Shown: positions 23,520 through 39,347 of the stretch, piece after piece | Layout: each line of letters opens with the position of its first letter | Numbering within the stretch: position 1 is the first letter of the stretch | Assembly: GCA_012103255.1 (NCBI GenBank) | Contig: WLXD01000001.1 | Coordinates: forward strand, 868,001-932,000 | Length of the DNA: 64,000 bases | Direction of reading: 5' to 3' | Source: Acidobacteriota bacterium | GTDB lineage: Bacteria > Acidobacteriota > UBA890 > WLXD01 | Made by a program: the position numbers and the translations under genes | Notes under the pieces: model-generated | The model's input: the letters and a program-made list of their open reading frames with translations, nothing else | Told to the model about the DNA's origin: nothing | The model's database searches: none

Positions 23520-24164
23520 ACGAGGCTTTGGCGGGCCGCTGATCTCGAGCAAGGCACCGAGCATCAGGGCCATCCCGATCAGTTCGAGTGCTTCTTCGAG
23601 CACGACCAACGCGCGGGGCATGCCGAGAATCGGGTCCAGGAACTCGGCGAGAGGCACGCAGCACCAGATGGCGATGGCGGTCGGTACGAGCCATCGTGCC
23701 GAGTAGCCAGCTGGGATCCGGCGCAGAATCCAGCGGGCCATCACCAGGGCAATGATGAGCGCGGGCGGAGCCACGATGGCCACCCAGGCGTACAGCCCTG
23801 GCAAGGCCTGAAGTTCGGCGACGCGTTCGCTGAATAGCAATCCGACGAGCTCGTGAATCGATGCGGTCTCGTCGAGCGACAGCAGGGCGAAGAACGCGGC
23901 GACCAGACCCCAGCCCAGCCGATGGGATCCGGGGTCGCGCACCGCCAGACCGGCGGCGAGCGCGGCAATCAGCAGAAGGCTCGTGGACGAGAACCAAACG
24001 GAGGCGTTGCTCTCCGCGTTGAGCTCGAACAGTGCCGCAACGCTCCAAGAGTTGATCAGGGGCGAAATGTTTATGGTCACGAGCACGGCGGTCACCGCCA
24101 GATGCACGGCCATGGCGGGACGCGCGAGTGCCCCCCAGTCGATGTTCTCAGCGCGCTGGTTCAT
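23463..24164 (-). CDS. Six-TM integral membrane protein of unknown function
   Basis: A 233-residue protein with about six hydrophobic segments (for example PAMAVHLAVTAVLVTINISPLI; TSLLLIAALAAGLAV; LGWGLVAAFFALLSLDETASIHELVGLLF; YAWVAIVAPPALIIALVMARWIL; WLVPTAIAIWCCVPLAEFLDPIL; ALMLGALLEI). The DETASIHE segment between helices has charged residues and a His that recur in multi-TM proteins of unknown function beside cell-envelope genes. The start codon at 24164 overlaps the stop of the upstream acyltransferase gene (ATGA), so translation is likely coupled. The frame stays open upstream to 24344 but then overlaps the neighbouring gene. Confidence 0.7.
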   Translation of the reverse strand: MNQRAENIDWGALARPAMAVHLAVTAVLVTINISPLINSWSVAALFELNAESNASVWFSSTSLLLIAALAAGLAVRDPGSHRLGWGLVAAFFALLSLDETASIHELVGLLFSERVAELQALPGLYAWVAIVAPPALIIALVMARWILRRIPAGYSARWLVPTAIAIWCCVPLAEFLDPILGMPRALVVLEEALELIGMALMLGALLEISGPPKPRSGRDSVTNRVLDRVAEPI

Positions 24165-25378
24165 TCTGCCTCCGGTCGAAGTAGCCGGCGCGCCAGAGGT
24201 TCCATGCCGGTGCGCCTCACGAGAGCCTTGGCCTGTTCGCGCCTCGGCATGTCGAGACAACGCGCGGCAAGTCCGCGCAACCCGGGGCTGAAGAGCCAGA
24301 GTGCGTGTGTGGTGATCTGGCGCGGCTCCCATTGCAGATGCCACGGGAGGCCCGTGACCATGTTCACTGCGGGCACGTCGTTTTCAGCGCACCACACTCG
24401 GATGGTCTCCGCCAGAAGCAGTTTTCCCACGCCGAAATTGGCCCAGTCCTCGTCGTAGGAGGTCTTCACGAGGTGCAGCTCGTTGTCGATCACGACGCAG
24501 AGTTGCGCAGCAACATCTTGACCGTCGACGCGTAGGAAGTGGGCCACGGAGCGGCCGTTCCGCGCGCAATGACGCATGCTCGTACGTAGCGCTTCGCGTT
24601 GGGCAACGTCACTGCGGAGAACGGAGCCGTCGTTGCGTTTCCACGAGCGATCGTCCACCTGCAGGTACCGGTTGAAGGCGGACTCCATCTCGACACCAGC
24701 TGTGACGGCGTCCATTTCGACGTCGTGATTCGCGCCGAGTCGGCGGCCCAGACGCCGCACACCTTTGCGCGCACTGGGCGACATGGATTTCAGCAGCGCC
24801 TCGTAGCCGTCGGGAAACTGGATCAGCGACCGGAAGCTCACAGGAGAGCTAACAGCCCCCTCTGTTACGCGTAGCGGGTGGTCCTCCTCGATTCGACCAA
24901 GGTGGAGACTCCGCACCCGGCTGTCGCCGATGCGGCTACGGAAGAGAGCATTGAGAGCAGCTTCCTGATGACCTTCCGCGACCGACCAGGACTGGCTCGG
25001 GTATCCGTGGGAGTGGCGAAGCCTCCCACCGCCCCGGTGGGTCACGGGAGCGATGGTGTGCGGTTCCCCGTTGGCGAGAACGATCATGACAAAGGCGTCC
25101 GGCGGGCTCACTGCGAGCTGGCCGGCCAGGTGTCCGGCAAGCCATGCCGGATCGGTCAGCGCGTCGCGCTCGTCCAAGGCCAAGCCGTTCCAGTATTGCT
25201 GCCAGGCCGCGAATGTCTCGCCGGTCGCAGTCGCGACGCGCCGCACCTCGCTCGAGTCGAGCGGTACGAAGACGATCTGATCGGGGGCATGAAGCGCAAC
25301 GGCTCGAGGTTCCGTCGCCTGATCTTGCGACGGGGAAGCGGTTGCGGCGGCGGCATGAACGGACTGGCGCATGGGCAC
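24161..25378 (-). CDS. FemAB/BioF2-like GNAT acyltransferase
   Basis: A 405-residue protein with the GNAT fold of the FemAB/CelD (acetyltransferase PF13480) group. Recognisable blocks are FPDGYEALLKSMSPSARKGVRRLGRRLG, a conserved W in VDDRSWKRNDGS, VAHFLRVDGQDVAAQLCVVIDNELHLVKTSYDEDWANFGVGKLLLAETIRV and the terminal TGLPWHLQWEPRQI. Proteins of this group transfer acyl or aminoacyl groups during cell-envelope polysaccharide or peptidoglycan modification. Coupling to a multi-TM protein gene (4-nt overlap) supports an envelope role, which is an inference. A second ATG two codons downstream is possible. Confidence 0.78.
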   Translation of the reverse strand: MPMRQSVHAAAATASPSQDQATEPRAVALHAPDQIVFVPLDSSEVRRVATATGETFAAWQQYWNGLALDERDALTDPAWLAGHLAGQLAVSPPDAFVMIVLANGEPHTIAPVTHRGGGRLRHSHGYPSQSWSVAEGHQEAALNALFRSRIGDSRVRSLHLGRIEEDHPLRVTEGAVSSPVSFRSLIQFPDGYEALLKSMSPSARKGVRRLGRRLGANHDVEMDAVTAGVEMESAFNRYLQVDDRSWKRNDGSVLRSDVAQREALRTSMRHCARNGRSVAHFLRVDGQDVAAQLCVVIDNELHLVKTSYDEDWANFGVGKLLLAETIRVWCAENDVPAVNMVTGLPWHLQWEPRQITTHALWLFSPGLRGLAARCLDMPRREQAKALVRRTGMEPLARRLLRPEAE

Positions 25379-25493
25379 AGACTAGCTATCGGTGCCGGTG
25401 CTTCGGAAACCTAAAGACACGCGGGCTGGGTGCCGGACAAAGGGACCGGATAACAGCGGTCAATCGCGGACGCTGGTGACAGTTCCGCGCAGC

Positions 25494-25499
25494 TATACT
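25494..25499 (+). promoter_or_regulatory. Putative -10 hexamer for a leaderless transcript
   Basis: TATACT (5 of 6 matches to the -10 consensus) lies only 6 nt before the thioesterase ATG at 25506, so transcription would begin at or next to the start codon. No Shine-Dalgarno sequence is visible in between. No convincing -35 element is seen at the usual distance. Confidence 0.35.
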
Positions 25500-25505
25500 G
25501 CGCCT

Positions 25506-25952
25506 ATGGAAACTGCGCCCATGGAAGATTTCAGCGTCACGGTTCCGGGTGAGGTCACGTTTCGCGATGTCGATGCGATGGGGCATGCGAACAACGCGGT
25601 CTACCTCACGTGGTTCGAATGCGGCCGGATCGGCTACTGGAAGGCCATCGAGGGCGAGGCGGCGAACTACGCCGACGTCCCTTTCGTTCTGGCACGCACC
25701 GAGATCGACTTCGTGCTGCCAACGTACGCCGGCGAGCGCCTGGTTGTGGGAACTCGGGTCACACGGCTGGGCAACCGGTCCTTCGACATGGCCTACCGGA
25801 TCGAACGGCGGCAGGACGGGGCCCTCATCGCGTCAGGCACGTCGGTTCAGGTCATGTACGACTATTCGGCGCGCGCGTCTATGCCGATGCCGGAAGAGTT
25901 CAGGGCAACCGTGATTCGCATCGAGGGTCACGGCCTGCTGGCCCGACCCTGA
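25506..25952 (+). CDS. Acyl-CoA thioesterase (hotdog fold, YbgC/4HBT type)
   Basis: A 148-residue single hotdog-domain thioesterase. The family signature is near the N-terminus: FRDVDAMGHANNAVYLTWFECGRIGYW, with the catalytic Asp in DxDAMGHANN. VLARTEIDFVLPTYAGERLVVGTRVTRLGNRSFDMAYRI completes the fold. It hydrolyses acyl-CoA thioesters, with chain length unknown. The chosen ATG at 25506 has no ribosome-binding site but has a -10-like hexamer just upstream; an internal ATG at 25521 would still leave the domain whole. Its TGA overlaps the ATG of the glycosyltransferase by one base (TGATG). Confidence 0.88.
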   Translation: METAPMEDFSVTVPGEVTFRDVDAMGHANNAVYLTWFECGRIGYWKAIEGEAANYADVPFVLARTEIDFVLPTYAGERLVVGTRVTRLGNRSFDMAYRIERRQDGALIASGTSVQVMYDYSARASMPMPEEFRATVIRIEGHGLLARP

Positions 25953-26734
25953 TGGACAGCCTCGCGGTTGTAGTTATCACGCGTGACGAAGAGGAGAACC
26001 TGGCTGAGTGCCTCGACAGTGTGCCGTTCGCCGACGAGATCATCATCGTCGACGATGGATCCAGCGATTCCACGTTGGATGTGGCGGGCCGCTATACCGA
26101 GAAGGTGTTCCGGCGACGACTCGATCGGTTCGGACGACAGAAGCAGTTCGCGATCGAGCAGGCCAATGCCGACTGGATTCTGGTGCTCGATGCGGATGAG
26201 CGAGTGACCCCCGAACTGGCGCAATCGATCAAGTCGGTTCTCGCCGAGTCCGGTCCGATCGACGGGTATCGCCTGAGGCGTCGCACCTGGCTGTTCTCTG
26301 AGCCGGTCACATGCACCGGCTGGTACAAGTTTGCGCACTTGCGCTTGTTCCGCCGCGGCAAGGCTCGCTACGTCGATCGGCGTGTCCACGAATTCCCCGA
26401 GCTGGAAAATCCGGATAGATGCGGGCGACTGCAGGGCGACCTGGACCACTTCACTTACGCGAGCCTTGATGAGTACCGCGAGAAGCTAGATCGCTATTCC
26501 CGTCTGGCGGCTTCGGACTGGTACGACGCTGGAAGGCGGGTGACCTGGATTACCGCCCCGTGGTGGATGCTGGTGGTGCCGTGGGCTGCGTTCGTGCGTG
26601 AGTTCTTCGTGCAAGGCGGCTGGCGCGGCGGCAGGGTCGGCCTGCGAATCGCCGCGATGTCGCGCGAATCTGCTGCGCTGACGGTGCGCTACCTGCGCCG
26701 GCTCACCGTCGGAGCGATGACGCCATCTCCGTAG
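25952..26734 (+). CDS. Family 2 glycosyltransferase (LpsE/WaaE-like)
   Basis: A 260-residue GT2 enzyme. ITRDEEENLAECLDSVPFADEIIIVDDGSSDST is the nucleotide-sugar fold, LDADERV the DXD-like metal site, and TGWYKFAHLRLFRRGKARYVDRRVHEF the acceptor region typical of LPS-core and capsule transferases related to WaaE/KdtX. A hydrophobic segment near residue 200 (WITAPWWMLVVPWAAFVREFF) may touch the membrane. It should add a hexose to lipopolysaccharide core or another surface glycan on the cytoplasmic side. It is translationally coupled to the thioesterase gene. Confidence 0.88.
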   Translation: MDSLAVVVITRDEEENLAECLDSVPFADEIIIVDDGSSDSTLDVAGRYTEKVFRRRLDRFGRQKQFAIEQANADWILVLDADERVTPELAQSIKSVLAESGPIDGYRLRRRTWLFSEPVTCTGWYKFAHLRLFRRGKARYVDRRVHEFPELENPDRCGRLQGDLDHFTYASLDEYREKLDRYSRLAASDWYDAGRRVTWITAPWWMLVVPWAAFVREFFVQGGWRGGRVGLRIAAMSRESAALTVRYLRRLTVGAMTPSP

Positions 26735-26744
26735 GGCAGCTTCG

Positions 26745-27551
26745 CTAGCGCGGCACCGGCCGGCGTGAACGCGGACCGCGCGACTGCTCGTTGAGGGTCC
26801 AGTCGTAGTCCATGATCCTCACCGTAATGTCGTCGCGGTTGGCCTGCACGTACGTCGCGATGTCCTCGGGGCCGTAGCTCAGGGCGTAGTCCACTCGGGA
26901 GTCGGCCTTCTGGAGGAAATCGTCCTCGTACCAGTCGAAGTAGCTCGACAGGTAGAGCGTGTTGGAGGTCCGATCGAGCTGCATCCCGCGAGGTTGTGCC
27001 AGGAACTCGTGTGACTGTGCCTGCAGGGTCTGATCGAGCGTCTCGGCTCGGTAGGGCACGTTGAGCAGCCGCGGACATCCGAACGCCGCGCAAACCAGCG
27101 CCCAGTGAATCCTTTCATCGTCGAACTGGGCGCGGAGAGTGTCATGTTCGATGTTGTCAGCAGACATGTCACTGCCGGCGACCGTGTAGGTCTGCTTGAA
27201 GAAACCGCCGACCAGTCCCCAGAGGACGCCGACGTCACGGACCGAATCGATGGGGTGGCGTTCCACCACCTGCCAGATCACCACGGCGTTGTAGGCGTTG
27301 ATCCAGAACGCCATACGCTCCGCTTCGGTGGCAAATGTGTTCGGGTCGGTTCGGGCGAGCACGTCCATGAACGCCTGCAGGTCGCCCAATCCGCGCGTCT
27401 TGAGTCCGGCGTAGTCAACCAGGCCCTCGTCGTTCACGAACTCCGCGAGCGTTCGCTCCCAGGTGGCGTACATGTCGCTCTGCTGCGCAGTGGCGGCGCT
27501 CGGCGCGAGGAGGGCGATTGCGATCAGGGCGCTCGCGATCCGACGGGTCAT
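26745..27551 (-). CDS. Secreted DUF547 protein
   Basis: A 268-residue protein with signal peptide MTRRIASALIAIALLAPSAATAQ and a DUF547 domain, recognised by EAERMAFWINAYNAVVIWQVVERHPIDSVRDVG, HDTLRAQFDDERIHWALVCAAFGCPRLLNVPYRAETLDQTL and FLAQPRGMQLDRTSNTLYLSSYFDWYEDDF. The His and paired Cys in HWALVCAAFGCPRL are conserved in the family and could form an active site, but no activity is established. AGGAGA about 8 nt upstream supports ATG 27551. Confidence 0.88.
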   Translation of the reverse strand: MTRRIASALIAIALLAPSAATAQQSDMYATWERTLAEFVNDEGLVDYAGLKTRGLGDLQAFMDVLARTDPNTFATEAERMAFWINAYNAVVIWQVVERHPIDSVRDVGVLWGLVGGFFKQTYTVAGSDMSADNIEHDTLRAQFDDERIHWALVCAAFGCPRLLNVPYRAETLDQTLQAQSHEFLAQPRGMQLDRTSNTLYLSSYFDWYEDDFLQKADSRVDYALSYGPEDIATYVQANRDDITVRIMDYDWTLNEQSRGPRSRRPVPR

Positions 27552-27650
27552 GAACTCGTTTCTCCTGCGCCGTTGCCCGGGCAAAGGCGCGAAAATCAGT
27601 TGGCTCTCACGAGAGGTAAGTTTGTTGTGCGCGGCGCATTGGTTTCCAGT

Positions 27651-27669
27651 GTCCACTGAACGAGTGGAC
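27651..27669. other. Perfect 7-bp hairpin
   Basis: GTCCACT and AGTGGAC flank a 5-nt loop between the glutaredoxin-like gene and the DUF547 gene, both on the minus strand. There is no T-tract on either side, so it is not a standard terminator; it could be an RNA hairpin between cistrons or an operator. Confidence 0.3.
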
Positions 27670-27692
27670 GGTTCGCCGGAGAGCCGACGACT

Positions 27693-27941
27693 TCATGTTC
27701 CGCGACGGAGTCGCTGCTCGATCCACGCCGGGTCGAAACCGACGGAGTGCTCGTCGCCGATGGTCACCACGGGCGTCGCGATCGGACCGCCTGTGATGGC
27801 TCTCAGCGTACCCCAGGGATCATCGAGTTGATCGATCTCGATGTAGTCGAAGTCGACTCCTGCCTGCGAGAGAAACTCCCTCGCTGCCTGGCACGGAGCT
27901 CAGCCGGGACCGCTGCTGTACAGGACGATACGTTGCGTCAT
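27693..27941 (-). CDS. Candidate selenocysteine-containing glutaredoxin (in-frame TGA at 27900-27902)
   Basis: An 82-residue minus-strand gene that a standard ORF search misses because of an in-frame TGA at codon 14. The product reads MTQRIVLYSSGPG-U-APCQAAREFL..., followed by a cis-Pro motif GGPIATPVVTIGD and SVGFDPAWIEQRL, a complete glutaredoxin/NrdH-like fold. The TGA replaces exactly the first Cys of the usual CxxC (U-A-P-C). A hairpin at 27866-27884 matches a bacterial SECIS. Other genes here use TGA as stop, so the code is standard. It starts 25 nt after tRNA-Gln on the same strand; no Shine-Dalgarno sequence is visible. Sec-containing glutaredoxins are known from marine metagenomes. 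The alternative is a nonsense pseudogene, which the precise position makes unlikely. Confidence 0.75.
27866..27884 (-). promoter_or_regulatory. Putative bacterial SECIS element
   Basis: Starting 16 nt downstream of the in-frame UGA, the minus-strand RNA forms an 8-bp stem GCGAGGGA / UCUCUCGC (one G-U pair) closed by the loop GUU, placing the loop 24-26 nt after the UGA. Flanking UGCC and GGCA (27861-27893) can extend it across an internal loop. Bacterial SECIS elements lie within the coding sequence just after the UGA, with a G in the first loop positions; SelB contacts a GU in the E. coli loop. Spacing and loop both fit. Confidence 0.6.
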
Positions 27942-27966
27942 GGTAGGCGCTGGCGCGGGGTATGAA

Positions 27967-28041
27967 TGGTTGGGGCGCAGGGATTCGAACCCCGATTCTA
28001 CGGTCCAGAGCCGCATGTCTTGCCAATTGGACGACGCCCCA
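27967..28041 (-). tRNA. tRNA-Gln (anticodon CTG)
   Basis: The minus strand folds into a full cloverleaf: acceptor TGGGGCG / CGCCCCA, anticodon loop CTCTGGA with CTG at positions 34-36, T-arm GGGG-TTCGAAT-CCC, discriminator A at 27970 and encoded CCA at 27967-27969. The TGGGG start and the anticodon fit glutamine. It lies directly upstream of the candidate Sec-glutaredoxin and could be cotranscribed with it. Confidence 0.96.
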
Positions 28042-28142
28042 ACCCGGCCGACGCTCAGTGGCGCCGCGGCGTGCGACCCGAAAGGTCGCAGGCCCCAAGG
28101 GTACGGTGCTACGCCGCGCCCCGCAATCTCCTGAAGTTGCCG

Positions 28143-30617
28143 CTAGGACGACTCTTCCGGTGCGTCCGTCGGGTTCAGATCGGGGATGTCGATCGCCGGA
28201 TTGCTGTCGCCCGCGCCGGGATCCATGTCTTCATCATCGTCGACCTGGCTCTGGCGCCAGCCGAGCAGGCCTGGAAGAAGCACGGTGGCGGTTAGCCAGG
28301 TGCAGGTGAGACCGACAACGGCGAGATGGCCGATCGAACGCAGGCCCGGGTGGTGCGCGAAAGCCATACCCGCGTAGCCCATGATCGTCGTCACGGTTGC
28401 GACGGTGATCGGTTCGAAGAGTTCCAGCTGCGTCTTGCGGGTACTCTGCCCGAGTTCCCGCCATCGGCGGTAGAAATGAACGCCGTGGTCGACCCCGAGA
28501 CCGAGCAACGTGGGGAGCACCACGATGTTGAAGAAGTTGAGCTTCCAGCCAAGCGCGATCACCGCGCCAAACGTGAGCAGCAGACTGGCCACGAGGGGCA
28601 CCAGGACCCAGGCCGCCTGGTTGACGTCACGCCTATCGATCACGACCAAAATAAAAATGCCGAGGAACGTGAGAACCACGATGAGTGGCGTCTCGCTGGT
28701 GACGAGCCACAGGATCTCCGCGAGCACCGGCTTGTCGCCCGTTGGCCCACGAATTCCATCGGGCATCTCCATGTCGTGAAGCTGGCGCGTGAACTGCATC
28801 GTCACGAGACCGTCTTTGCCGTTGCCGGTGGCGTGCAGGCCAAGCACGTACTCGCCCGAGCCATCGCGCGCGATGAGTCGCTCGCGGATCACGTCCGGGA
28901 TGTCGCGCGGCCGGGAGAGCCGTTCCGGGATCTCGAAGGCAAGCACGTCGTCGATGAGGCGGACACGATCGGGATCTTCGATCCGTCGCACCCAGCGGCC
29001 CGAGAGCATCTGTTGGATGTCGGTGATGTACCGCTCGCGCTCCAGCCCTTCTGACGCCGATGGCGCGAAGTCGCGGACGCTCGACATCGACCTGATGACG
29101 TTGTCTTCGCGATCCCTGGATTCGTCGATCAGAGTCAGAGCGCGATCGAGAGCATCGAGGTCTTCAGCGACGTAGATCGCGGATGGGCCGAAGAAGATCG
29201 GATAGACCTCTTCCTGCTTGGCCTTGATGGCATCGAGTTCATCGAGGTTGGCGCTGAAGTTCGCGAAGTCGTAGTCAAATTCCAGCCACTGCGCGGACGC
29301 CGCTGCGGAGCCGAGCACAAGAAACCCGAGCAGAGCAGCAGCCCATCGCGGCGGTATCGCCAGGTGGCGACTCGGGATCCGTGGCTTCTGCGCGCGAACG
29401 AGCCCCAGTCGGTGACCGAGGGAAAGTGTCGCCGGCATCACGAACAGCATCGTGAGCGTGACGACGAAGATCGAAATACCGCCGATGAGGCCGAAGTCGT
29501 AGAACCCGCGAAAGTCCGAAATCGCGAGGATGAGGAGCCCGAATGAGGTCGTGATACCGGAGGTGGCCACCGAGCGACCTGTGGAGGTGAAGGTCTCAAC
29601 CAGAGCGTCTTCCGGGTCTCGCTCGAGCAGTTCGTGACGATAGCGCTTGGTGAGGTGGATCGAGTAGTCCACCCCCATGCCGAAGAGCACCATCAGGAGA
29701 AACGACGTGATGGTGTTGAGTTCGCCGACCAGGTGCGGAACGAACGCGAACGCGTAGACGAGCCCGACCCCGAGTGGGTAGACGACGACCGGGAGTATTC
29801 GCATTGAGCGGAAGCTCACCGCCAGCGCCAGCATGATCGCGAGCACCGCCACGATGCCGGTGCGCTGAACGTCGCTGATGATCACGCGGAACTCCTCGAC
29901 GCGCGTGCGCAGCGAACCACCGATCGAGATGGTTACGCCGTGCGCCCCCTCGATCGAGTCGGCGGAGCTCCGCATCTCGTCGTAGAGCGTTGCCGTGGCG
30001 GCCATGTCCGACAGCCCCTGGCTGATGTTGACGATCATCCCGTACATCGTGCTGTCCGGAGTGCGGTGATACTCCGGCAACTCGCGGTACTGATCCATCA
30101 ACTCTTCGAGCTGCTGTGAGGTCTCGCTTTCCTCTTCGTCGACCCCGAAATCGTCGAGGAAAGGGTTCACCTGGGCTTCCCATTCCTCGATCGTCGTGAC
30201 CATGTCCTCGAGTTGATACGAGGGCACCAGGGTGTACTTGTACTGATTGATGAAGTCGGTCGGGTAGCGATAGTCGATCGTGGCGATGCCATCGATCGCG
30301 CGGAGTCGCTCGACCATCGCTTGGACGGCGGTTTCCAGCGTGTCGGGCGTGCTGCCCTCGAAGATCAGGCTGAAGTAGCCGCCGTCGCCAACGAGCGGTT
30401 CGAGCTCTTCGCTCCACTGCACCGCCGGGCTGTTCTCCGGCAACAAACGAGTCAGGTTGGTATCAAGCCCGAGTGTCCGTGCCTGCATGAACGCGGGGAC
30501 GGCGAGCAAGAGCGTGGCCAGCAGCCACACGGCGGCCCAGCGGTGCGACCAGCGGCAAACGAGGGTGAGCTCGCGATAAAAGAGCGTGCCTTCTCGAGCG
30601 GTGCGAAGTTCGGACAT
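28143..30617 (-). CDS. RND superfamily (MMPL/HpnN-like) transporter
   Basis: An 824-residue RND-type permease: an N-terminal TM helix (VWLLATLLLAVPAFM), a large periplasmic domain, a 5-TM block with FGMGVDYSIHLTKRY, then the same pattern repeated (WAAALLGFLVLGSAAASA, periplasmic domain, TM block with LGLGVDHGVHFYRRWRE). Conserved Asp residues in both TM4-like helices (GVDY, GVDH) fit proton coupling. The closest known type is the MMPL/HpnN group, which moves hydrophobic lipids such as hopanoids. It diverges from a TolC-MlaC pair and lies next to ceramide-type genes, so a lipid substrate is the best guess. The acidic C-terminal tail (DDDEDMDPGAGDSN) is cytoplasmic. Confidence 0.88.
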   Translation of the reverse strand: MSELRTAREGTLFYRELTLVCRWSHRWAAVWLLATLLLAVPAFMQARTLGLDTNLTRLLPENSPAVQWSEELEPLVGDGGYFSLIFEGSTPDTLETAVQAMVERLRAIDGIATIDYRYPTDFINQYKYTLVPSYQLEDMVTTIEEWEAQVNPFLDDFGVDEEESETSQQLEELMDQYRELPEYHRTPDSTMYGMIVNISQGLSDMAATATLYDEMRSSADSIEGAHGVTISIGGSLRTRVEEFRVIISDVQRTGIVAVLAIMLALAVSFRSMRILPVVVYPLGVGLVYAFAFVPHLVGELNTITSFLLMVLFGMGVDYSIHLTKRYRHELLERDPEDALVETFTSTGRSVATSGITTSFGLLILAISDFRGFYDFGLIGGISIFVVTLTMLFVMPATLSLGHRLGLVRAQKPRIPSRHLAIPPRWAAALLGFLVLGSAAASAQWLEFDYDFANFSANLDELDAIKAKQEEVYPIFFGPSAIYVAEDLDALDRALTLIDESRDREDNVIRSMSSVRDFAPSASEGLERERYITDIQQMLSGRWVRRIEDPDRVRLIDDVLAFEIPERLSRPRDIPDVIRERLIARDGSGEYVLGLHATGNGKDGLVTMQFTRQLHDMEMPDGIRGPTGDKPVLAEILWLVTSETPLIVVLTFLGIFILVVIDRRDVNQAAWVLVPLVASLLLTFGAVIALGWKLNFFNIVVLPTLLGLGVDHGVHFYRRWRELGQSTRKTQLELFEPITVATVTTIMGYAGMAFAHHPGLRSIGHLAVVGLTCTWLTATVLLPGLLGWRQSQVDDDEDMDPGAGDSNPAIDIPDLNPTDAPEESS

Positions 30618-30790
30618 GGGGCGGTGGGGTTCCGTAAGTGAACGGGTCTCTCGCGCCGTAGCGCTGCCAAGGGCGCCGGGCGCGCGCCCGGCGATCTTGC
30701 TGGAGCGCCCAGGACCCCTAGAAGGATACGCTACGACCGCAATCGTGGAATGTTAGATTTCAAGGCTCCCCCCGCCGATTCGGAGTAGCC

Positions 30791-32203
30791 GTGCGCCCTC
30801 GTTCCGTTCAGAGAGCCGTCGTCGTTGGCCTGATCGCGGGCCTGACAGTGCCTGGCCCGGGCGACTTGCTCGCCCAGCAGGCCGAGGAGCCAGCGCGGCG
30901 GAGTTTCGGTTTGGCCGCGGTCGTCGCGAAAGTCGTTGACGCGAATCCACTCGTTCGCGCCCATCGCCTCGATTCGCAGCGCGCCCAAATCGACGTCGAT
31001 CAGCTTGAGGGTTTCTGGGCCCTACCCCAGGTGTCGTTCAACAGCTTGTCGGGAGTCGTGCCGGCCGCGCGCGGCAATGTCGTTGACTCTCCCGACACGG
31101 CGAACGATCTCGACAACCTCGGGCCGTTCTACAACTTCTCGGTGAACGTCGTGTTCCCGTTGTACACGTTCGGTCGTCTCGAGCACGGCGCGGCCGCGGC
31201 GCGGAACATCGTGACAGCCCGCAATGCCGAAGGTGACAAGGCTCGCGACGATCTCTCGCTGCAGGCGATCATGGCGTACTGGGGTGTTCTCGCCGGCGAA
31301 GAGTACGTGGATCTGTTCACGGAGATGAACGATTCCTACGACGACCTCATCGTTCAGGCCGAGGAGAAGGTCGAGACGAACGCCATCGATCTGAACGACG
31401 CCTTCGAGATCAAGTCGGCGCGATTCGATGTCGAGGCGTTGTTGCTGCGGGCGGTCCAGGTGGAGCGAGTCGTGCGGCGTTCACTGGGTGAGTTTCTCGA
31501 CCTTCAGCCAGGCGAGCAATACGACCTTCGCGAGGCCGGTACACCCGAGGTCAAGTTGACGCTCGAGGATCTAGGCCGACTCCAGACCATCGCATCGTCC
31601 AGGCATCCTCAGGTTCGCGCCCTGAAAGCAGTCGTGAACGCGCTGGACGAGACCATGGAGATCGAGCGCAGCAATCGCTGGCCGGTGATTCTCGTAGGCG
31701 GCGGATTCGGCTGGGCGCGATCACCCAATCGGGACTCCCAGGACAACCCATTTGTCTTCGACGAGTTCAACTACACGCGCGTGGCAGCCGCCTTCAATGT
31801 GCGTTGGGATCTGAATTTTGCGCGCCATGATCTCAATTACATGCGGCGCAAGCTCGAGCGTGACGCCACGGAGTCACGGCGTCGAGCGCTGCAAATGAAG
31901 ATCAATATCGAGGTGCACGAGGCCCTCGAGGCGGTGCTTATGCAGCAGCAATTGCTAGCCTCGGCGCGTGAATCCAGGCGTGAATCGCGCCGCTGGCTGC
32001 GCACGGCGGCCGACGATTTCGACCTAGGAATCGGCGAGGCACAGCCACTGATCAAGGCTTATCAGGCGGACTATCGTTTACAGGCCACCGTGATTCAGTC
32101 AGAATATGACCTGAATGTTGCCTTGGCCTCGTTGGCCCTAGTAATTGGCGACATGCATTCATACTTAACGTGGATTGCTGATGGCCAGGTTGCGCTCGAT
32201 TAG
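30791..32203 (+). CDS. TolC family outer-membrane efflux protein
   Basis: A 470-residue TolC-family channel with signal peptide (VVVGLIAGLTVPGPGDLLAQ) and long helical repeats typical of the outer-membrane efflux domain (VVAKVVDANPLVRAHRLDSQRAQIDVDQLEGFWALPQVSFN; repeated around residues 270-330 with SRHPQVRALKAVVNALDETMEIERSNRWPVILVGGGFGWA). The coiled region QMKINIEVHEALEAVLMQQQLLASARESRRESRRWLRTAADDFDLG forms the periplasmic tunnel. No membrane-fusion protein gene is adjacent, which is unusual for a TolC system. Its 3-prime end overlaps the MlaC gene by 23 nt. Confidence 0.85.
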   Translation: MRPRSVQRAVVVGLIAGLTVPGPGDLLAQQAEEPARRSFGLAAVVAKVVDANPLVRAHRLDSQRAQIDVDQLEGFWALPQVSFNSLSGVVPAARGNVVDSPDTANDLDNLGPFYNFSVNVVFPLYTFGRLEHGAAAARNIVTARNAEGDKARDDLSLQAIMAYWGVLAGEEYVDLFTEMNDSYDDLIVQAEEKVETNAIDLNDAFEIKSARFDVEALLLRAVQVERVVRRSLGEFLDLQPGEQYDLREAGTPEVKLTLEDLGRLQTIASSRHPQVRALKAVVNALDETMEIERSNRWPVILVGGGFGWARSPNRDSQDNPFVFDEFNYTRVAAAFNVRWDLNFARHDLNYMRRKLERDATESRRRALQMKINIEVHEALEAVLMQQQLLASARESRRESRRWLRTAADDFDLGIGEAQPLIKAYQADYRLQATVIQSEYDLNVALASLALVIGDMHSYLTWIADGQVALD

Positions 32204-32789
32204 CCTCGGGGCACTCGTCTTCTCCATGACTGCGGTTGCGGCCGGCCAGGGCGCAGAAACCCGCACGCCGATGGAGATAGTCCGAGAGTCCAACGAGGCG
32301 ATTACCGCCATACTCGGCGAGTACGATCCTCTCGGTTCCGAGGGGGAAGCGCTCGTGTACGAGGTCATGGACGGCGTCACCGACTTCCAAGAGATGTCGG
32401 CAGCGACGATCAATGATCTGTGCGGGGAAAACGAAATCCCCGGCGAGAAGTGCGGCGAGTGGAAAAAGGTCTTCGGAGATCTGCTCCGCATTCGTTCCAT
32501 TAAGGGTGTCGGCCGTTATCGGGCCGACAGCTTCGATTATCTGAACGAGGAGATCGCCGGCGAGCGCGCGGTGGTTAACACCCTGGCCCACTACGAGGAC
32601 GAGGAGGTCACGATCGACTACGAGCTGGCGTCGCGAGGCGACGGCTGGGTGATCGTGAACTACGTGATCGACGACGTCGATACGTCCTATAGCTACAACC
32701 GCCGCTTCGGACGCCTGCTCGACGACGACACCGTCGACGATGTCATTCAGCTTCTGCTCGATCGGATCGAGGATTTTCGGGCGGAGTAA
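32181..32789 (+). CDS. MlaC/Ttg2D/HpnM-type phospholipid-binding periplasmic protein
   Basis: A 202-residue exported protein (signal MARLRSISLGALVFSMTAVAAGQG) of the MlaC/Ttg2D family: TPMEIVRESNEAITAIL, VMDGVTDFQEMSAATI, the WKKVFGDLLRIRSIKGVGRY region, and the closing strands VTIDYELASRGDGWVIVNYVIDDVDTSYSYNRRFGRLL. MlaC proteins carry lipids across the periplasm. ATG 32181 is chosen; its ORF lies inside the last 23 nt of the TolC gene, indicating coupled translation. TolC and MlaC next to an RND of HpnN type recall hopanoid and sphingolipid transport sets. A Cys pair (DLCGENEIPGEKCGEW) is unusual for the family and may form a disulfide. Confidence 0.85.
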   Translation: MARLRSISLGALVFSMTAVAAGQGAETRTPMEIVRESNEAITAILGEYDPLGSEGEALVYEVMDGVTDFQEMSAATINDLCGENEIPGEKCGEWKKVFGDLLRIRSIKGVGRYRADSFDYLNEEIAGERAVVNTLAHYEDEEVTIDYELASRGDGWVIVNYVIDDVDTSYSYNRRFGRLLDDDTVDDVIQLLLDRIEDFRAE

Positions 32790-32851
32790 TTCCGCCTGGA
32801 ACGATTCAGTTCGGTCAGGCAGGCGACATCGAGACCAGGCCAGGGATCAGC

Positions 32852-32870
32852 TCCGCACCCTAGGTGCGGA
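32852..32870. promoter_or_regulatory. Perfect 8-bp inverted repeat upstream of the ceramide-type operon
   Basis: TCCGCACC and GGTGCGGA flank a 3-nt centre (CTA), 36 nt before the serine palmitoyltransferase ATG and 62 nt after the MlaC stop. There is no T-tract, so a repressor or activator operator, or a transcript hairpin, is more likely than an intrinsic terminator. Confidence 0.35.
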
Positions 32871-32905
32871 CTGTGCGCGCGTGCGCGATCTCGTGTGAGT
32901 ACACG

Positions 32906-34141
32906 ATGACAAACTCGAAGACTGCGACGGCCGCCGTTCCGACTCTGGATCCGGCGGACATCTTCACGAAGGCATACAACTTCGAGCAGGCGGATGATCT
33001 CCGCAATGCCGGGTTGTTCCCGTACTTCCAGCCGTTGGGCGGCCAGATTGGCAATGAAGTCAATGTCAATGGCAACCGAATGGTCATGGTGTGCTCGAAC
33101 GACTACCTGGGGCTGTCCCAGGACCGTCGAGTGCAGCAGGCCGGAATTCCGGCGCTCGAGGAGTTCGGCACCAGCTGCACGGGATCACGCTTCCTGAATG
33201 GAACGCTGTCTCTGCATGAGGGGCTGGAGCGCGACCTCGCGAAGTACCTGAACAAGGAAGACGCGCTCACCTTCAGTACCGGCTTCCTCGGTTCGTTGGG
33301 AGTTCTGAGCGCTCTGGTTGGCCGCCGCGAGATCATGTATTTCGATCGCGAGAACCACGCGAGTCTTTACGACGGTGCGCGGCTCTCCTGGGGCGAACTT
33401 CGGAAGTTCCGCCATGGCGACCTCGAGCATCTCGAGTTCCTGCTGAAGAAGGACGCCGACAAGGCCGTCGGGAAGCTCATCGTCACGGACGGGGTGTTCT
33501 CGATGAGCGGTGAGGTCGCAGACCTGCCCGGCATCATCGAGCTGGCCCGCAAGTATGGCGCCCGTGTTCTGGTGGACGATGCGCACTCGACCGGCGTGAT
33601 GGGTCCGAACGGCCGCGGCACCGCCGAGCACTTCGGCGTTGAAGACGAGGTGGACCTCATCATCGGTACGTTCTCGAAGGCGTTCGCCTCGGTCGGCGGT
33701 TTCCTTGCCGGGCCGGCAGACGTCGTCGACTACGTGAAGTGCATGGCCCGCCCATTCATCTTCACGGCAGCGCTGCCGCCAGCGCAGGTGGCCTCGACGC
33801 ATGAATCACTTCGGATTCTCTCGAGTGAACCGGACCATCGCGAGAGACTGTGGAAGCGGGTGGCCCTGTTCCGCGAGGGGCTCTCGGCTCTGGGCTTCGA
33901 CACGATGAAGTCGGAGGGCCCGATCGTTCCGGTGCTCATCGGCGACTTCGATCACGCGCTCGGATTCTGGAAGCAGGTTTGGGACCACGGCGTCTTCGCG
34001 CTGCCCGCAGTTCCGCCAGCAGTTCCGCCCGGCGAATGCCTGATCCGCATGGCTGTGAACGCCAGCCACACACGCGAGGAAATCGATCGCGTGTTGGCGG
34101 TGTTTGCAGAGGTCGGCCGCGCCACCCGGATGATTCCCTGA
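32906..34141 (+). CDS. spt: Serine palmitoyltransferase-like AONS-family enzyme
   Basis: A 411-residue alpha-oxoamine synthase. PLP lysine K258 in GTFSKAFASVGGF, ring-stacking His151 in NHASLYDG, and PLP-binding D225/H227 in VDDAHSTG are all present. CSNDYLGLSQDRRVQQA, FGTSCTGSRFLNGTLSLHEGLE and FSTGFLGSLGVLSAL match bacterial serine palmitoyltransferases better than KBL or BioF, which prefer other wording after GSRFLNGT. It would condense L-serine with an acyl thioester to 3-ketosphinganine. The next two genes match the ceramide synthase and reductase of bacterial sphingolipid synthesis, which supports the assignment. ATG 32906 begins just before the first conserved residues. Glycine C-acetyltransferase is the main alternative. 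Confidence 0.75.
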   Translation: MTNSKTATAAVPTLDPADIFTKAYNFEQADDLRNAGLFPYFQPLGGQIGNEVNVNGNRMVMVCSNDYLGLSQDRRVQQAGIPALEEFGTSCTGSRFLNGTLSLHEGLERDLAKYLNKEDALTFSTGFLGSLGVLSALVGRREIMYFDRENHASLYDGARLSWGELRKFRHGDLEHLEFLLKKDADKAVGKLIVTDGVFSMSGEVADLPGIIELARKYGARVLVDDAHSTGVMGPNGRGTAEHFGVEDEVDLIIGTFSKAFASVGGFLAGPADVVDYVKCMARPFIFTAALPPAQVASTHESLRILSSEPDHRERLWKRVALFREGLSALGFDTMKSEGPIVPVLIGDFDHALGFWKQVWDHGVFALPAVPPAVPPGECLIRMAVNASHTREEIDRVLAVFAEVGRATRMIP

Positions 34142-34174
34142 CGTGCATCGCTCCTCTGCGACGCCGAGGTGCCT

Positions 34175-35296
34175 ATGGCCTCGGTGACAGTGCGCGCGGT
34201 TGCTCCGCGTGACGAGAAGACGTTCATGCGGCTTCCGGAGCGACTCTACGCCGGAGATCCGCACTGGGTGCCGCCGCTGTGGATGGCAGAGAAGGAACGG
34301 CTAAGCGCGAAGAAGAATCCGTTCCTGGCGAGGGTCGCTCACCAGAAGATGGTCGCCTGGCGTGGCAACGAGCCCGTGGGACGCATCATGGCCATCGACG
34401 ATCCCCGACACAACGAGATTCACGGCGACAATCTCGCCTTCTTCGGTTTCTTTGAAGCACTCGATTCCGAGGTTGCGGCTGCCCTGCTCCACGCGGCAGA
34501 GGAATGGGCGAGGGAACGCGGTCGCGACGTGCTGCGAGGTCCGGCAAACCCGTCGCTCAACGACACTTGCGGCCTGCTCGTCTGGGGGTTCGATGACGAC
34601 CCGATGATGATGATGCCGTACAACCCGGCGACCTACCCGGAGTGGGTCGAAGCGGCGGGGTACACGAAAGCGAAGGATCTCTACGCGTGGACCATGGATC
34701 TCACCAAGGGCGTGAACCCGCGTTCTCAGAAGATCCTTGAGCGGATGGAGAAGCGCCTGGATCCGGCCCCTGTGGTTCGGGATCTCCGCAAAGAGACATT
34801 CAAGGAAGACATCTTCACGGTGCGGGAGATCTTCATCGCCTGCTGGCAGGACAACTGGGGATTCGTTCCGCCCACCAAAGAAGAGTTCTGGCACGCCGCC
34901 AAGGACATGAAGCTCATCCTCGACTGGCAGCTGGCCAAGATGATGGAGATCGACGGCAAGCCCGTGGCGTTCTCGCTCTCGCTCAGCGACCTGCATCAGG
35001 TCTACAAGCTCATCGGTGGACGCCTTCTTCCGTTCGGTTTCATGAAGCTTCTGCGCCGGCATCGATACATGGACCGGGGGCGCATGTTGCTGCTGGGGGT
35101 CCTCCCGGAGCATCGCAACAAGGGGTTGGAGCTACGCCTGATCACGGAGTCCATGGCCGCAACGCAGACTGTCGGCTGGAAAACCGGTGAGAGTTCCTGG
35201 ACTCTCGAGGACAACGCTGGCGTGGCCAAGGCGATTCAGATCGTCGGCGGGTGGCACTACAAGACCTATCGCCTCTACGACAAGCCTCTCGACTGA
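34175..35296 (+). CDS. bcerS: bCerS-like GNAT-fold acyltransferase (putative bacterial ceramide synthase)
   Basis: A 373-residue protein with a GNAT-like fold: N-terminal FMRLPERLYAGDPHWVPPLWMAEKERLSAKKNPFL, ARVAHQKMVAWRGNEPVGRIMAIDDPRHNEIHGDNLAFFGFFE, RDVLRGPANPSLNDTCGLLVWGFDDDPMMMMPYNPATYPEWVEAAGY, and a final acyltransferase strand RMLLLGVLPEHRNKGLELRLITES. The wording is that of the large GNAT proteins now known in Caulobacter as bacterial ceramide synthase, which N-acylate a sphingoid base. The assignment rests on sequence style plus position between spt and cerR and is not proven. GAGG at 34166-34169 selects ATG 34175 over GTG 34169. Confidence 0.7.
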   Translation: MASVTVRAVAPRDEKTFMRLPERLYAGDPHWVPPLWMAEKERLSAKKNPFLARVAHQKMVAWRGNEPVGRIMAIDDPRHNEIHGDNLAFFGFFEALDSEVAAALLHAAEEWARERGRDVLRGPANPSLNDTCGLLVWGFDDDPMMMMPYNPATYPEWVEAAGYTKAKDLYAWTMDLTKGVNPRSQKILERMEKRLDPAPVVRDLRKETFKEDIFTVREIFIACWQDNWGFVPPTKEEFWHAAKDMKLILDWQLAKMMEIDGKPVAFSLSLSDLHQVYKLIGGRLLPFGFMKLLRRHRYMDRGRMLLLGVLPEHRNKGLELRLITESMAATQTVGWKTGESSWTLEDNAGVAKAIQIVGGWHYKTYRLYDKPLD

Positions 35297-35308
35297 AAGG
35301 AGGTCCCG

Positions 35309-36304
35309 ATGGACGCAGCTGCGCGGCCCATCGCGGTCGTGACCGGCGGTACTGGCTTCATCGGCTGGGCACTCTGCGAGGCATTGAGAGATGCCGGTTG
35401 GTGCGTTCGTGCAGTCGTCCGACCCACCAGTTCCAATCCGCTCCCAGAGGGCGTCGAGCGGTACGATGCGAATCTCGACGCAGCCGCTCTTGGCGATGCC
35501 TGCGCAGGTGCACAGGTCGTGTTCCATCTCGCCGGACTCACCCGCGCGAGGACCTACGAGGAATTCCACAGCGTCAACGCTGATGGCGCGGCCGAGGTCG
35601 CCCGCGCCGCTCGCCGGGCCGATGCTTTCTTCGTGCTCGTGTCCAGCCAGGCAGCAGCGGGCCCGGGAACTGTCGACAACGTTCGGATGGAAACGGATCC
35701 CGAGGCGCCCCTCAGCGACTATGGGCGCAGCAAGCTGGCCGGTGAACACGCCGTGAGAGCCATTGCAGGGCTGCGCTACTCGATCATTCGGCCGCCTGGT
35801 GTCTACGGCCCGCGCGACAAGGATTTTCTCGTGCTGTTCCGCTCCGCTCGTCGTGGGCTGCTGCCGCGCCTGGGAAGCGCTTCAAAGGCGTACACCTTGA
35901 TTCATGTTTCGGATGTTGTCGGGGCGTTGCTCGCCGTCGCTCGAACGGGTAGGGAAGACCCTGCAGCCGTCGACGGGCTGACCGCGTTCATCGGACACTC
36001 ACAACCGGTCACCCAGGGCGAATTGCTGCAGAGCATCGCTCGGGCCGTGGACAAGCCGCGCGCGCTTCGGCTGCCGGTGCCCCTTGGGGTGTTGCGGGTT
36101 CTCGCGGAGTTCGGTGAACTGCAGGGCGCGGTCACAGGCCGGCCAGCCGTGCTGAACCGTTCGCGATTCCGCGAATTGTCGGCGCCAGGGTTCGTGTGCA
36201 ACGTCGAGCGAATCGCTGACGCGACCGGTTGGCGGGCCGCGATTGGATTCGACGCGGGAATGAAAGAGACTGCGCGGTGGTACATCGCGGAGGAATGGGT
36301 ATAG
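35309..36304 (+). CDS. cerR: CerR-like NAD(P)-dependent epimerase/reductase (putative ceramide reductase)
   Basis: A 331-residue extended short-chain dehydrogenase/reductase. NAD(P)-binding motif TGGTGFIG at 12-19, active-site Y138-x3-K142 (DYGRSK) and SSQAAAGPG with the catalytic Ser region. Extended SDRs of this type are annotated as epimerases, and the Caulobacter CerR reductase that reduces the 3-keto group of oxidised ceramide belongs here. A strong ribosome-binding site AAAGGAGG lies just before ATG 35309, 12 nt after the bCerS-like gene, so the three genes form one operon. HpnA of hopanoid clusters is a related alternative. Confidence 0.7.
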   Translation: MDAAARPIAVVTGGTGFIGWALCEALRDAGWCVRAVVRPTSSNPLPEGVERYDANLDAAALGDACAGAQVVFHLAGLTRARTYEEFHSVNADGAAEVARAARRADAFFVLVSSQAAAGPGTVDNVRMETDPEAPLSDYGRSKLAGEHAVRAIAGLRYSIIRPPGVYGPRDKDFLVLFRSARRGLLPRLGSASKAYTLIHVSDVVGALLAVARTGREDPAAVDGLTAFIGHSQPVTQGELLQSIARAVDKPRALRLPVPLGVLRVLAEFGELQGAVTGRPAVLNRSRFRELSAPGFVCNVERIADATGWRAAIGFDAGMKETARWYIAEEWV

Positions 36305-36367
36305 TTCGGCGTCGGGCTGCTGGGATTCGATTCAGCGCGACGATCCTGAACCACGAGGAGAGTACAG

Positions 36368-36928
36368 ATGCGGAAGTTGGTAGTTGCGGCACTAGCTCTT
36401 GGAATTCTTGTCACCATGCCGGTGGGAGCTTTGCAGGATCAAGAGCCGGAGACTTTCATCGGCAATGCGATCTCCACTGGCGGTCGCTCGGGGACTTCAC
36501 GGATCCAGCTGCGGATCGACCGTTGGAACACGCCGGAAGAGCGACAGGCGTATCTCGCGTTGTTGGCCGAAGGTGGCCAAGAAGCGCTTGTGAAGCAGTT
36601 CCAGCAAAGCGAGATCGGCCGAGCGCGAGTGGGCCAGCGGAACTCCTATCCGATTTCCTATGCCTATCAGTTCGTCGCCGAGGACGGGACGCGGCGGGTG
36701 GTCATCGCGACAGATCGCCCCATCGGCGCGCTCGAAGCCGTTGGCCGAGCCAGCACGATGGAGTGGGGGGTATCCATTGTTGAACTCCGCATGCCTCCCG
36801 AAGGCAATGGCGAGGGTGCTCTCGTGGTTGCCGGCGCGGTTGTCGCTAATGCCGAGACGCACACGCTGAGCCTCGAGAACTACGGGCAGGCGCCTGTGCG
36901 CTTGAGCTCCGTGCGGTCGGAGAAGTAG
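36368..36928 (+). CDS. Secreted protein of unknown function
   Basis: A 186-residue protein with signal peptide MRKLVVAALALGILVTMPVGALQ and a compact beta-rich domain (STGGRSGTSRIQLRIDRWNTPEERQAYLALLAEGGQEALVKQF; SYAYQFVAEDGTRRVVIATDRPIGALEAVGR; WGVSIVELRMPPEGNGEGALVVAGAVVANAETHTLSLENYG). I recognise no named family. GAGGAGA at 36356-36361 fits ATG 36368. It ends the rightward lipid/ceramide cluster and is followed by a strong two-way terminator. Confidence 0.75.
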   Translation: MRKLVVAALALGILVTMPVGALQDQEPETFIGNAISTGGRSGTSRIQLRIDRWNTPEERQAYLALLAEGGQEALVKQFQQSEIGRARVGQRNSYPISYAYQFVAEDGTRRVVIATDRPIGALEAVGRASTMEWGVSIVELRMPPEGNGEGALVVAGAVVANAETHTLSLENYGQAPVRLSSVRSEK

Positions 36929-39046: not shown

Positions 39047-39156
39047 TGTCTCCCGCAGTGCGCCCACTTTCAACGGAGCGCGCCGAGCAGGCCCGCTTCG
39101 CAGTCGGGACTGTACTGCCGAGCCCAGCGCGATTCGCAGTAGTTGTGTAGAAAAAG

Positions 39157-39245
39157 CGGAGGGGGTGGGATTCGAACCCACGGCACGAGAAAACCCGTGC
39201 AACGGCTTAGCAGGCCGCCCTATTCAACCACTCTAGCACCCCTCC
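39157..39245 (-). tRNA. tRNA-Ser (anticodon GCT)
   Basis: The minus strand folds to acceptor GGAGGGG / CCCCTCC, anticodon loop CTGCTAA (GCT), the long variable arm of class II tRNAs (GCACGGGTTTTCTCGTGC) and T-arm GTGGG-TTCGAAT-CCCAC. Discriminator G; no encoded CCA. TTTTT follows directly, which may aid termination. It is the second tRNA downstream of serS. Confidence 0.95.
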
Positions 39246-39255
39246 TCAAGGGTAG

Positions 39256-39347
39256 CGGAGGCAGAAGGATTCGAACCTTCGGACCGCCTTGTGAGCGGTC
39301 AACGGTTTTCAAGACCGTCGCATTCAACCTGACTCTGCCATGCCTCC
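39256..39347 (-). tRNA. tRNA-Ser (anticodon TGA)
   Basis: A 92-nt class II tRNA: acceptor GGAGGCA / TGCCTCC, anticodon loop CTTGAAA (TGA), long variable arm (GACCGCTCACAAGGCGGTC) and T-arm GAAGG-TTCGAAT-CCTTC. Discriminator G, no encoded CCA. It starts 53 nt after the serS stop on the same strand and is followed 10 nt later by tRNA-Ser(GCT). Confidence 0.95.

Follow-up and report, generated by a model that had tools for sequence, protein, structure and literature searches.

The question raised by this locus, a block of six genes in the 64 000-nucleotide stretch of acidobacterial DNA analysed here (the window), is whether enzymes that make a ceramide are coupled to proteins that carry it to the outer membrane. 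The route of sphingolipids from the inner to the outer membrane has been stated as unknown, with only Lpt paralogues being suspected in Caulobacter (PMC11324152). In the preliminary description, MlaC- and TolC-family genes and a divergent gene for an MMPL-type RND transporter preceded a trio of Spt-, GNAT bCerS- and SDR CerR-like genes, and the ORF positions and domain scores confirm this layout and the order of the trio (Table 1). All six ORFs are open across window positions 28143-36304, the exact positions of their start codons being uncertain. The TolC and MlaC genes overlap by 29 nt and are followed by gaps of 74 nt (MlaC/Spt), 27 nt (Spt/GNAT) and 12 nt (GNAT/CerR). The RND gene lies on the opposite strand from the TolC, MlaC and spt genes, so that its position does not imply co-transcription.

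Table 1. Features of the six-gene block (window coordinates) and of the putative gammaproteobacterial carrier (coordinates within the loci named).
Feature	Position	Strand	Basis and remarks
RND/MMPL transporter, 824 aa	28143..30617	-	MMPL 120 bits; HpnN-like but not of the HpnN clade; candidate sphingolipid exporter of the inner membrane
Divergent intergenic region, 173 nt	30618..30790	.	ORF coordinates; presumed promoters for both directions
TolC-family outer membrane efflux protein, 470 aa	30791..32203	+	OEP 119 bits; apparent signal peptide; kept in family
MlaC-family periplasmic lipid-binding protein, 204 aa	32175..32789	+	MlaC 49 bits, HpnM model 32 bits; apparent signal peptide
Alpha-oxoamine synthase (AONS), serine palmitoyltransferase-like (Spt), 425 aa	32864..34141	+	Aminotran_1_2 192 bits; SPT side of tree
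GNAT-type ceramide synthase-like protein (bCerS), 375 aa	34169..35296	+	GNAT 23.5 bits (weak); homology to cluster GNATs
SDR/epimerase-type ceramide reductase-like protein (CerR), 331 aa	35309..36304	+	Epimerase 108 bits; near spt in phylum
Protein X, between Spt and RND	L158:2535-3650, L160:8603-9868, L178:7308-8402, L195:8582-9865		Exported, no Pfam family

The AONS was compared with solved structures and scored 371 bits against the best SPT, 283 against the next SPT group, 256 against KBL and 207 against BioF. In a maximum-likelihood tree of 47 rows, for which the outgroups were checked by their neighbours (kbl beside tdh, bioF beside bioA/bioD), it fell on the SPT side with support of 94/92, just below the starred level. 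This phylogeny, proposed as a check in the preliminary description, groups the enzyme with the SPTs apart from KBL and BioF; tree and scores together rule out either of these identities, and that of an ALA synthase is ruled out by score only. The NCBIfam equivalog cut-offs for SPT are missed (SerpalmtaseCFB, 439 bits versus 640; BetaP, 386 versus 500), as they are by the gammaproteobacterial and Nitrospinota Spts described below, and SPT models nonetheless score best. The shortfall from the curated cut-offs, the presence of a cysteate acyltransferase among the PDB relatives (248 bits) and the inability of the tree to tell which amino acid the enzyme picks would all suit a trio that starts from an amino acid other than serine and yields a related lipid (a sulfonolipid or 1-deoxyceramide) under the same exporter logic. 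We regard such a product as quite improbable, since the enzyme's best matches, in the PDB and among protein families, are to SPTs that use serine, and it groups with the AONSs of ceramide-type clusters.

Within the tree, the window AONS is sister to an enzyme encoded on a Rubrobacter radiotolerans plasmid (100/99) and not to other acidobacterial Spts, which suggests transfer. The plasmid carries spt, GNAT and SDR genes in the same order as the window trio, and the trio has likely passed between phyla, in either direction. Located at L220:11908-15275, the plasmid trio is the closest outside the family of the window genome; its Spt is 60% identical, and the Rubrobacter GNAT beside spt 47% identical, to the window protein.

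For the GNAT, the reference sequence for Caulobacter-type clusters was that of a Klebsiella michiganensis plasmid cluster rather than Caulobacter's own; the two proteins share 34% identity over 374 aa (E 4e-65). The plasmid cluster has acyl-AMP ligase, SDR, ACP and Spt genes in a row followed by LptF-LptG, a set that resembles the one published for Caulobacter (PMC11324152), and Roseomonas has a similar set. A Caulobacter-type cluster thus contains a GNAT that the window protein matches over almost its full length, which bears out the bCerS likeness noted in the preliminary description. The predicted structure of the window GNAT is poor (pLDDT 58). Among plasmid records, Escherichia coli YghO shares 33% identity with the window GNAT (34169-35296) over 98% of its length. 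No obvious signal peptide was seen in the window CerR, whereas in Caulobacter CerR is periplasmic and Spt and bCerS are cytoplasmic (PMC11087976). Judged by sequence, the assignment of the trio to ceramide synthesis is well supported and very probably correct.

The published Caulobacter crescentus cluster (aasR, cerR, acpR, spt, cerS/bCerS and LptC2/F2/G2; PMC11324152) likewise groups Spt, GNAT and SDR genes with transport genes, and Spt, bCerS and CerR lie together in the window as in a Caulobacter-type cluster. The Caulobacter lipid is meant for the outer membrane, and the same is proposed for the window lipid. Where Caulobacter has an ACP, an acyl-AMP ligase and Lpt paralogues, the window has RND, MlaC and TolC. 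No tblastn match for ACP, fatty acyl-AMP ligase, LptF or LptG was found in the window, and the three PP-binding matches in the whole genome (one 125-aa frame and two large frames) all lie outside it, in agreement with the earlier remark that the ACP and acyl-CoA ligase are not in the window.

The ceramide trio recurs across Acidobacteriota. The GNAT was found in 84 of 297 genomes; of the 28 spt loci compared in Acidobacteriota, 26 have a related GNAT within 5 kb, 23 the SDR and nine a PAP2_3 protein. Fungal inositol-phosphorylceramide synthase belongs to the PAP2_3 superfamily, and the PAP2_3 protein is a candidate head-group transferase; it was observed after or beside the trio in other Acidobacteriota at, for example, L059:10975-11820, L067:11061-12023 and L063:7877-8929.

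The exporter genes have a distribution of their own in the phylum. MlaC is present in six of the 297 genomes (four from the window genome's family, a fifth from its order and a distant sixth), and the window MlaC, which scores 49 bits against a cut-off of 26 bits, is the sole match in its genome. Strong RND matches are restricted to the four genomes of the family, with one much weaker match in the order. The arrangement RND<>TolC-MlaC-Spt-GNAT-CerR is kept in all four family genomes, the other three at 49-82% identity, and the block is therefore more than a chance association; other acidobacterial spt loci are without these exporter genes. The nearest named relatives of the window genome are the MAGs OFTM137, OFTM26 and B23T1B8. 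In a genome of the same order (G080) MlaC overlaps the RND gene on a short contig that carries no spt, and no GNAT was found genome-wide, which indicates that the MlaC-RND partnership does not depend on spt. An MlaC fragment on contig C173 of G001 lies at the contig end among unrelated neighbours and may be a contaminant.

The preliminary description called the RND HpnN-like, which holds as a resemblance but not as an identity. The window protein scored 242 bits against the HpnN model (cut-off 752) and 128 bits against the BstA model (cut-off 1400). A FastTree phylogeny, in which plasmid RND relatives, all of them partial or remote matches, served as HpnN references, placed the spt-linked RND family apart from the Burkholderia, Mycetohabitans and Azospirillum RNDs at 100. 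HpnN is thus ruled out by score and by position outside its clade, and BstA by score. HpnN, an RND of the same broad type, moves hopanoids. The HpnN/HpnM pair resembles the window set in combining an HAE3/MMPL-type RND with an MlaC-fold partner, the two being divergent neighbours in Mycetohabitans as well; the window RND differs in being linked to spt and accompanied by TolC. The BstABC proteins of Methylococcus, of which the RND BstA is proposed to move sterols (PMC10942540), similarly comprise an inner-membrane RND, a periplasmic lipid binder and an outer-membrane partner encoded beside lipid-synthesis genes, but the binder is a phosphonate-type binding protein in place of MlaC and the outer-membrane partner is BstC in place of a TolC-family protein. 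With Mla phospholipid transport the window shares the periplasmic MlaC fold, whereas an RND adjoins MlaC in place of the MlaFEDB ABC complex, a TolC-family protein is present and the MlaC is single in the genome. Among the ten proteins scanned at window 24161-36928, an RND and an OEP were found without the fusion protein of a tripartite RND efflux pump, as the preliminary description had remarked; one elsewhere in the genome is possible.

The likeness of RND and MlaC to HpnN and HpnM raises the alternative that RND-MlaC-TolC moves some other lipid (a hopanoid, phospholipid or glycolipid), adjacency to the trio then telling nothing of the substrate. This was weighed against the distribution of the RND in other phyla, where relatives were found by scanning named genomes with the RND alignment. 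An MlaC-family gene lies at most 150 nt from the RND gene in 28 of 77 relatives, often with TolC nearby, and the MlaC-RND pair, commonly joined by TolC, thus recurs as a module in Aminicenantes, Gemmatimonadota, Latescibacterota, Rokubacteria and others. Some neighbours of the module favour another lipid: an NRPS in Aminicenantes (L142), nucleotidyl-/CDP-alcohol transferases in Gemmatimonadota (L146) and a glycosyltransferase adjoining the RND in Desulfobulbaceae (L145). Among relatives of the window's own RND clade, a strong Spt is encoded elsewhere in the genome in Rokubacteria, Aminicenantes and one acidobacterial locus (L144), and none was found in the genomes of the Gemmatimonadota, Latescibacterota and Desulfobulbaceae relatives. 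The other-lipid alternative is nevertheless unlikely in our judgement: the RND is far below the HpnN cut-off and outside the clade, no hopanoid gene is present among the ORFs read, and on that view neither the fixed linkage across the family nor the reappearance of the RND beside spt in two other phyla would be expected. A set of TolC, nucleotidyl/CDP-alcohol transferase, MlaC, RND and GMC oxidoreductase genes with no nearby spt was also observed in Gemmatimonadota/Latescibacterota (L146:3573-14763, L149 and L154) and is perhaps the same exporter for another lipid.

The recurrence with spt was seen in Gammaproteobacteria and Nitrospinota, and the co-occurrence check proposed earlier came out positive for the RND in both. 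In one gammaproteobacterial order of 109 genomes, 14 encode Spt and precisely these 14 encode the RND, the two genes lying within 3 kb of each other in 12 and on separate contigs in the other two; the gene order is CerR-Spt-X-RND, and bCerS was not found beside this operon. A second Spt, sharing 58-59% identity with the first query, is encoded in four of these gammaproteobacterial genomes with no adjoining RND or CerR (L253-L256; G347:C72, G342:C30, G344:C13 and G343:C49). Of 77 Nitrospinota genomes, 42 have the RND, and a strong Spt is present in 38 of these 42 versus nine of the 35 without it; the two genes are adjacent in 21 genomes (a hand tally from coordinates). One Nitrospinota operon runs Spt-bCerS-CerR-CDP-alcohol phosphatidyltransferase-RND with overlapping genes (L248-L251, e.g. 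L249:2960-9653), a second arrangement is RND-desaturase-Spt-GNAT-CerR and a third group has the RND without a nearby spt. Fisher values for the co-occurrence in the two groups (6e-18 and 4e-9) ignore shared ancestry, and the figure that counts is therefore that of three separate spt-linked RND clades, each of which received full local support in the FastTree phylogeny, in a family apart from HpnN. The linkage may have arisen three times or may be old and frequently lost; on the simplest view, several lineages have coupled this RND family to ceramide synthesis. The three clades share only about 25% RND identity, so that a common substrate is not required.

Protein X, encoded between Spt and RND in Gammaproteobacteria (Table 1), is about 365 aa in length and has an apparent signal peptide; Pfam gave nothing beyond one chance-level match. 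Its HMM relatives are also close to the RND gene in L164 and L203. In its AlphaFold model (mean pLDDT 78), about 300 residues align with AttH and related proteins of double-lipocalin fold at Z scores of 20-23, the next rows having a score of 9. The possibility that X is another bCerS was rejected, as its HMM missed the GNATs and it is modelled as an all-beta protein with a double-lipocalin fold. Several members of the AttH-type double-lipocalin fold group are enzymes, and the fold likeness therefore does not establish function. A two-lipocalin ceramide carrier, Svf1, has been described in yeast (PMC10583516); it was not among the solved structures in the fold comparison, and the likeness is that of the two-lipocalin build only. 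As modelled, protein X would nonetheless put a fold suited to hydrophobic ligands in the place of MlaC, which fits an exchangeable carrier.

From these sequence comparisons, the block probably couples ceramide synthesis to lipid export by an RND, the periplasmic carrier being an exchangeable component. The trio would make a ceramide-type sphingolipid and the rest of the block would export it. The RND, driven by the proton gradient, would lift the lipid out of the inner membrane, the MlaC-fold protein would ferry it across the periplasm or link the pump to the outer membrane, and the TolC-family protein would take or pass it there. That RND-MlaC-TolC serves the product of the trio is likely on genome context, from which we infer the substrate, the direction, the order of steps and the part of TolC. 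Of the original proposal that the locus makes a ceramide and exports it, the synthetic half is well supported by the SPT tree and the GNAT homology, and the export half is strengthened by the spt-RND linkage in two more phyla.

More tentatively, these RNDs could form a new exporter class that, in at least three phyla, delivers sphingolipids to the outer membrane by way of interchangeable carriers, namely MlaC (with TolC) in Acidobacteriota and an AttH-type double lipocalin in Gammaproteobacteria. If so, the role of HpnN/BstA-like RNDs would widen from hopanoids and sterols to ceramides, and the three lipid types would be served alike. The RND set is in itself a second, testable candidate route for sphingolipids, unrelated to Lpt, for which the genes can be named and which is found again in three phyla. 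Our literature search found no paper joining sphingolipid with an MMPL or RND exporter, or spt with TolC; most subscription literature was outside its scope, and an earlier mention is possible.

On the flanks of the block, a 186-aa ORF after CerR was rejected as a member of the system, as it has no Pfam match and the CerR-GltX spacing in the sister genomes is too tight. Genes for a FemAB-like GNAT, a 4HBT thioesterase, a glycosyltransferase and a DUF547 protein adjoin the block (window 24161-27656) and are kept in the sister genomes. A tRNA-Gln gene (window 27967-28041) lies directly beyond the 3' end of the RND gene, and two tRNA-Ser genes are located at window 39156-39347.
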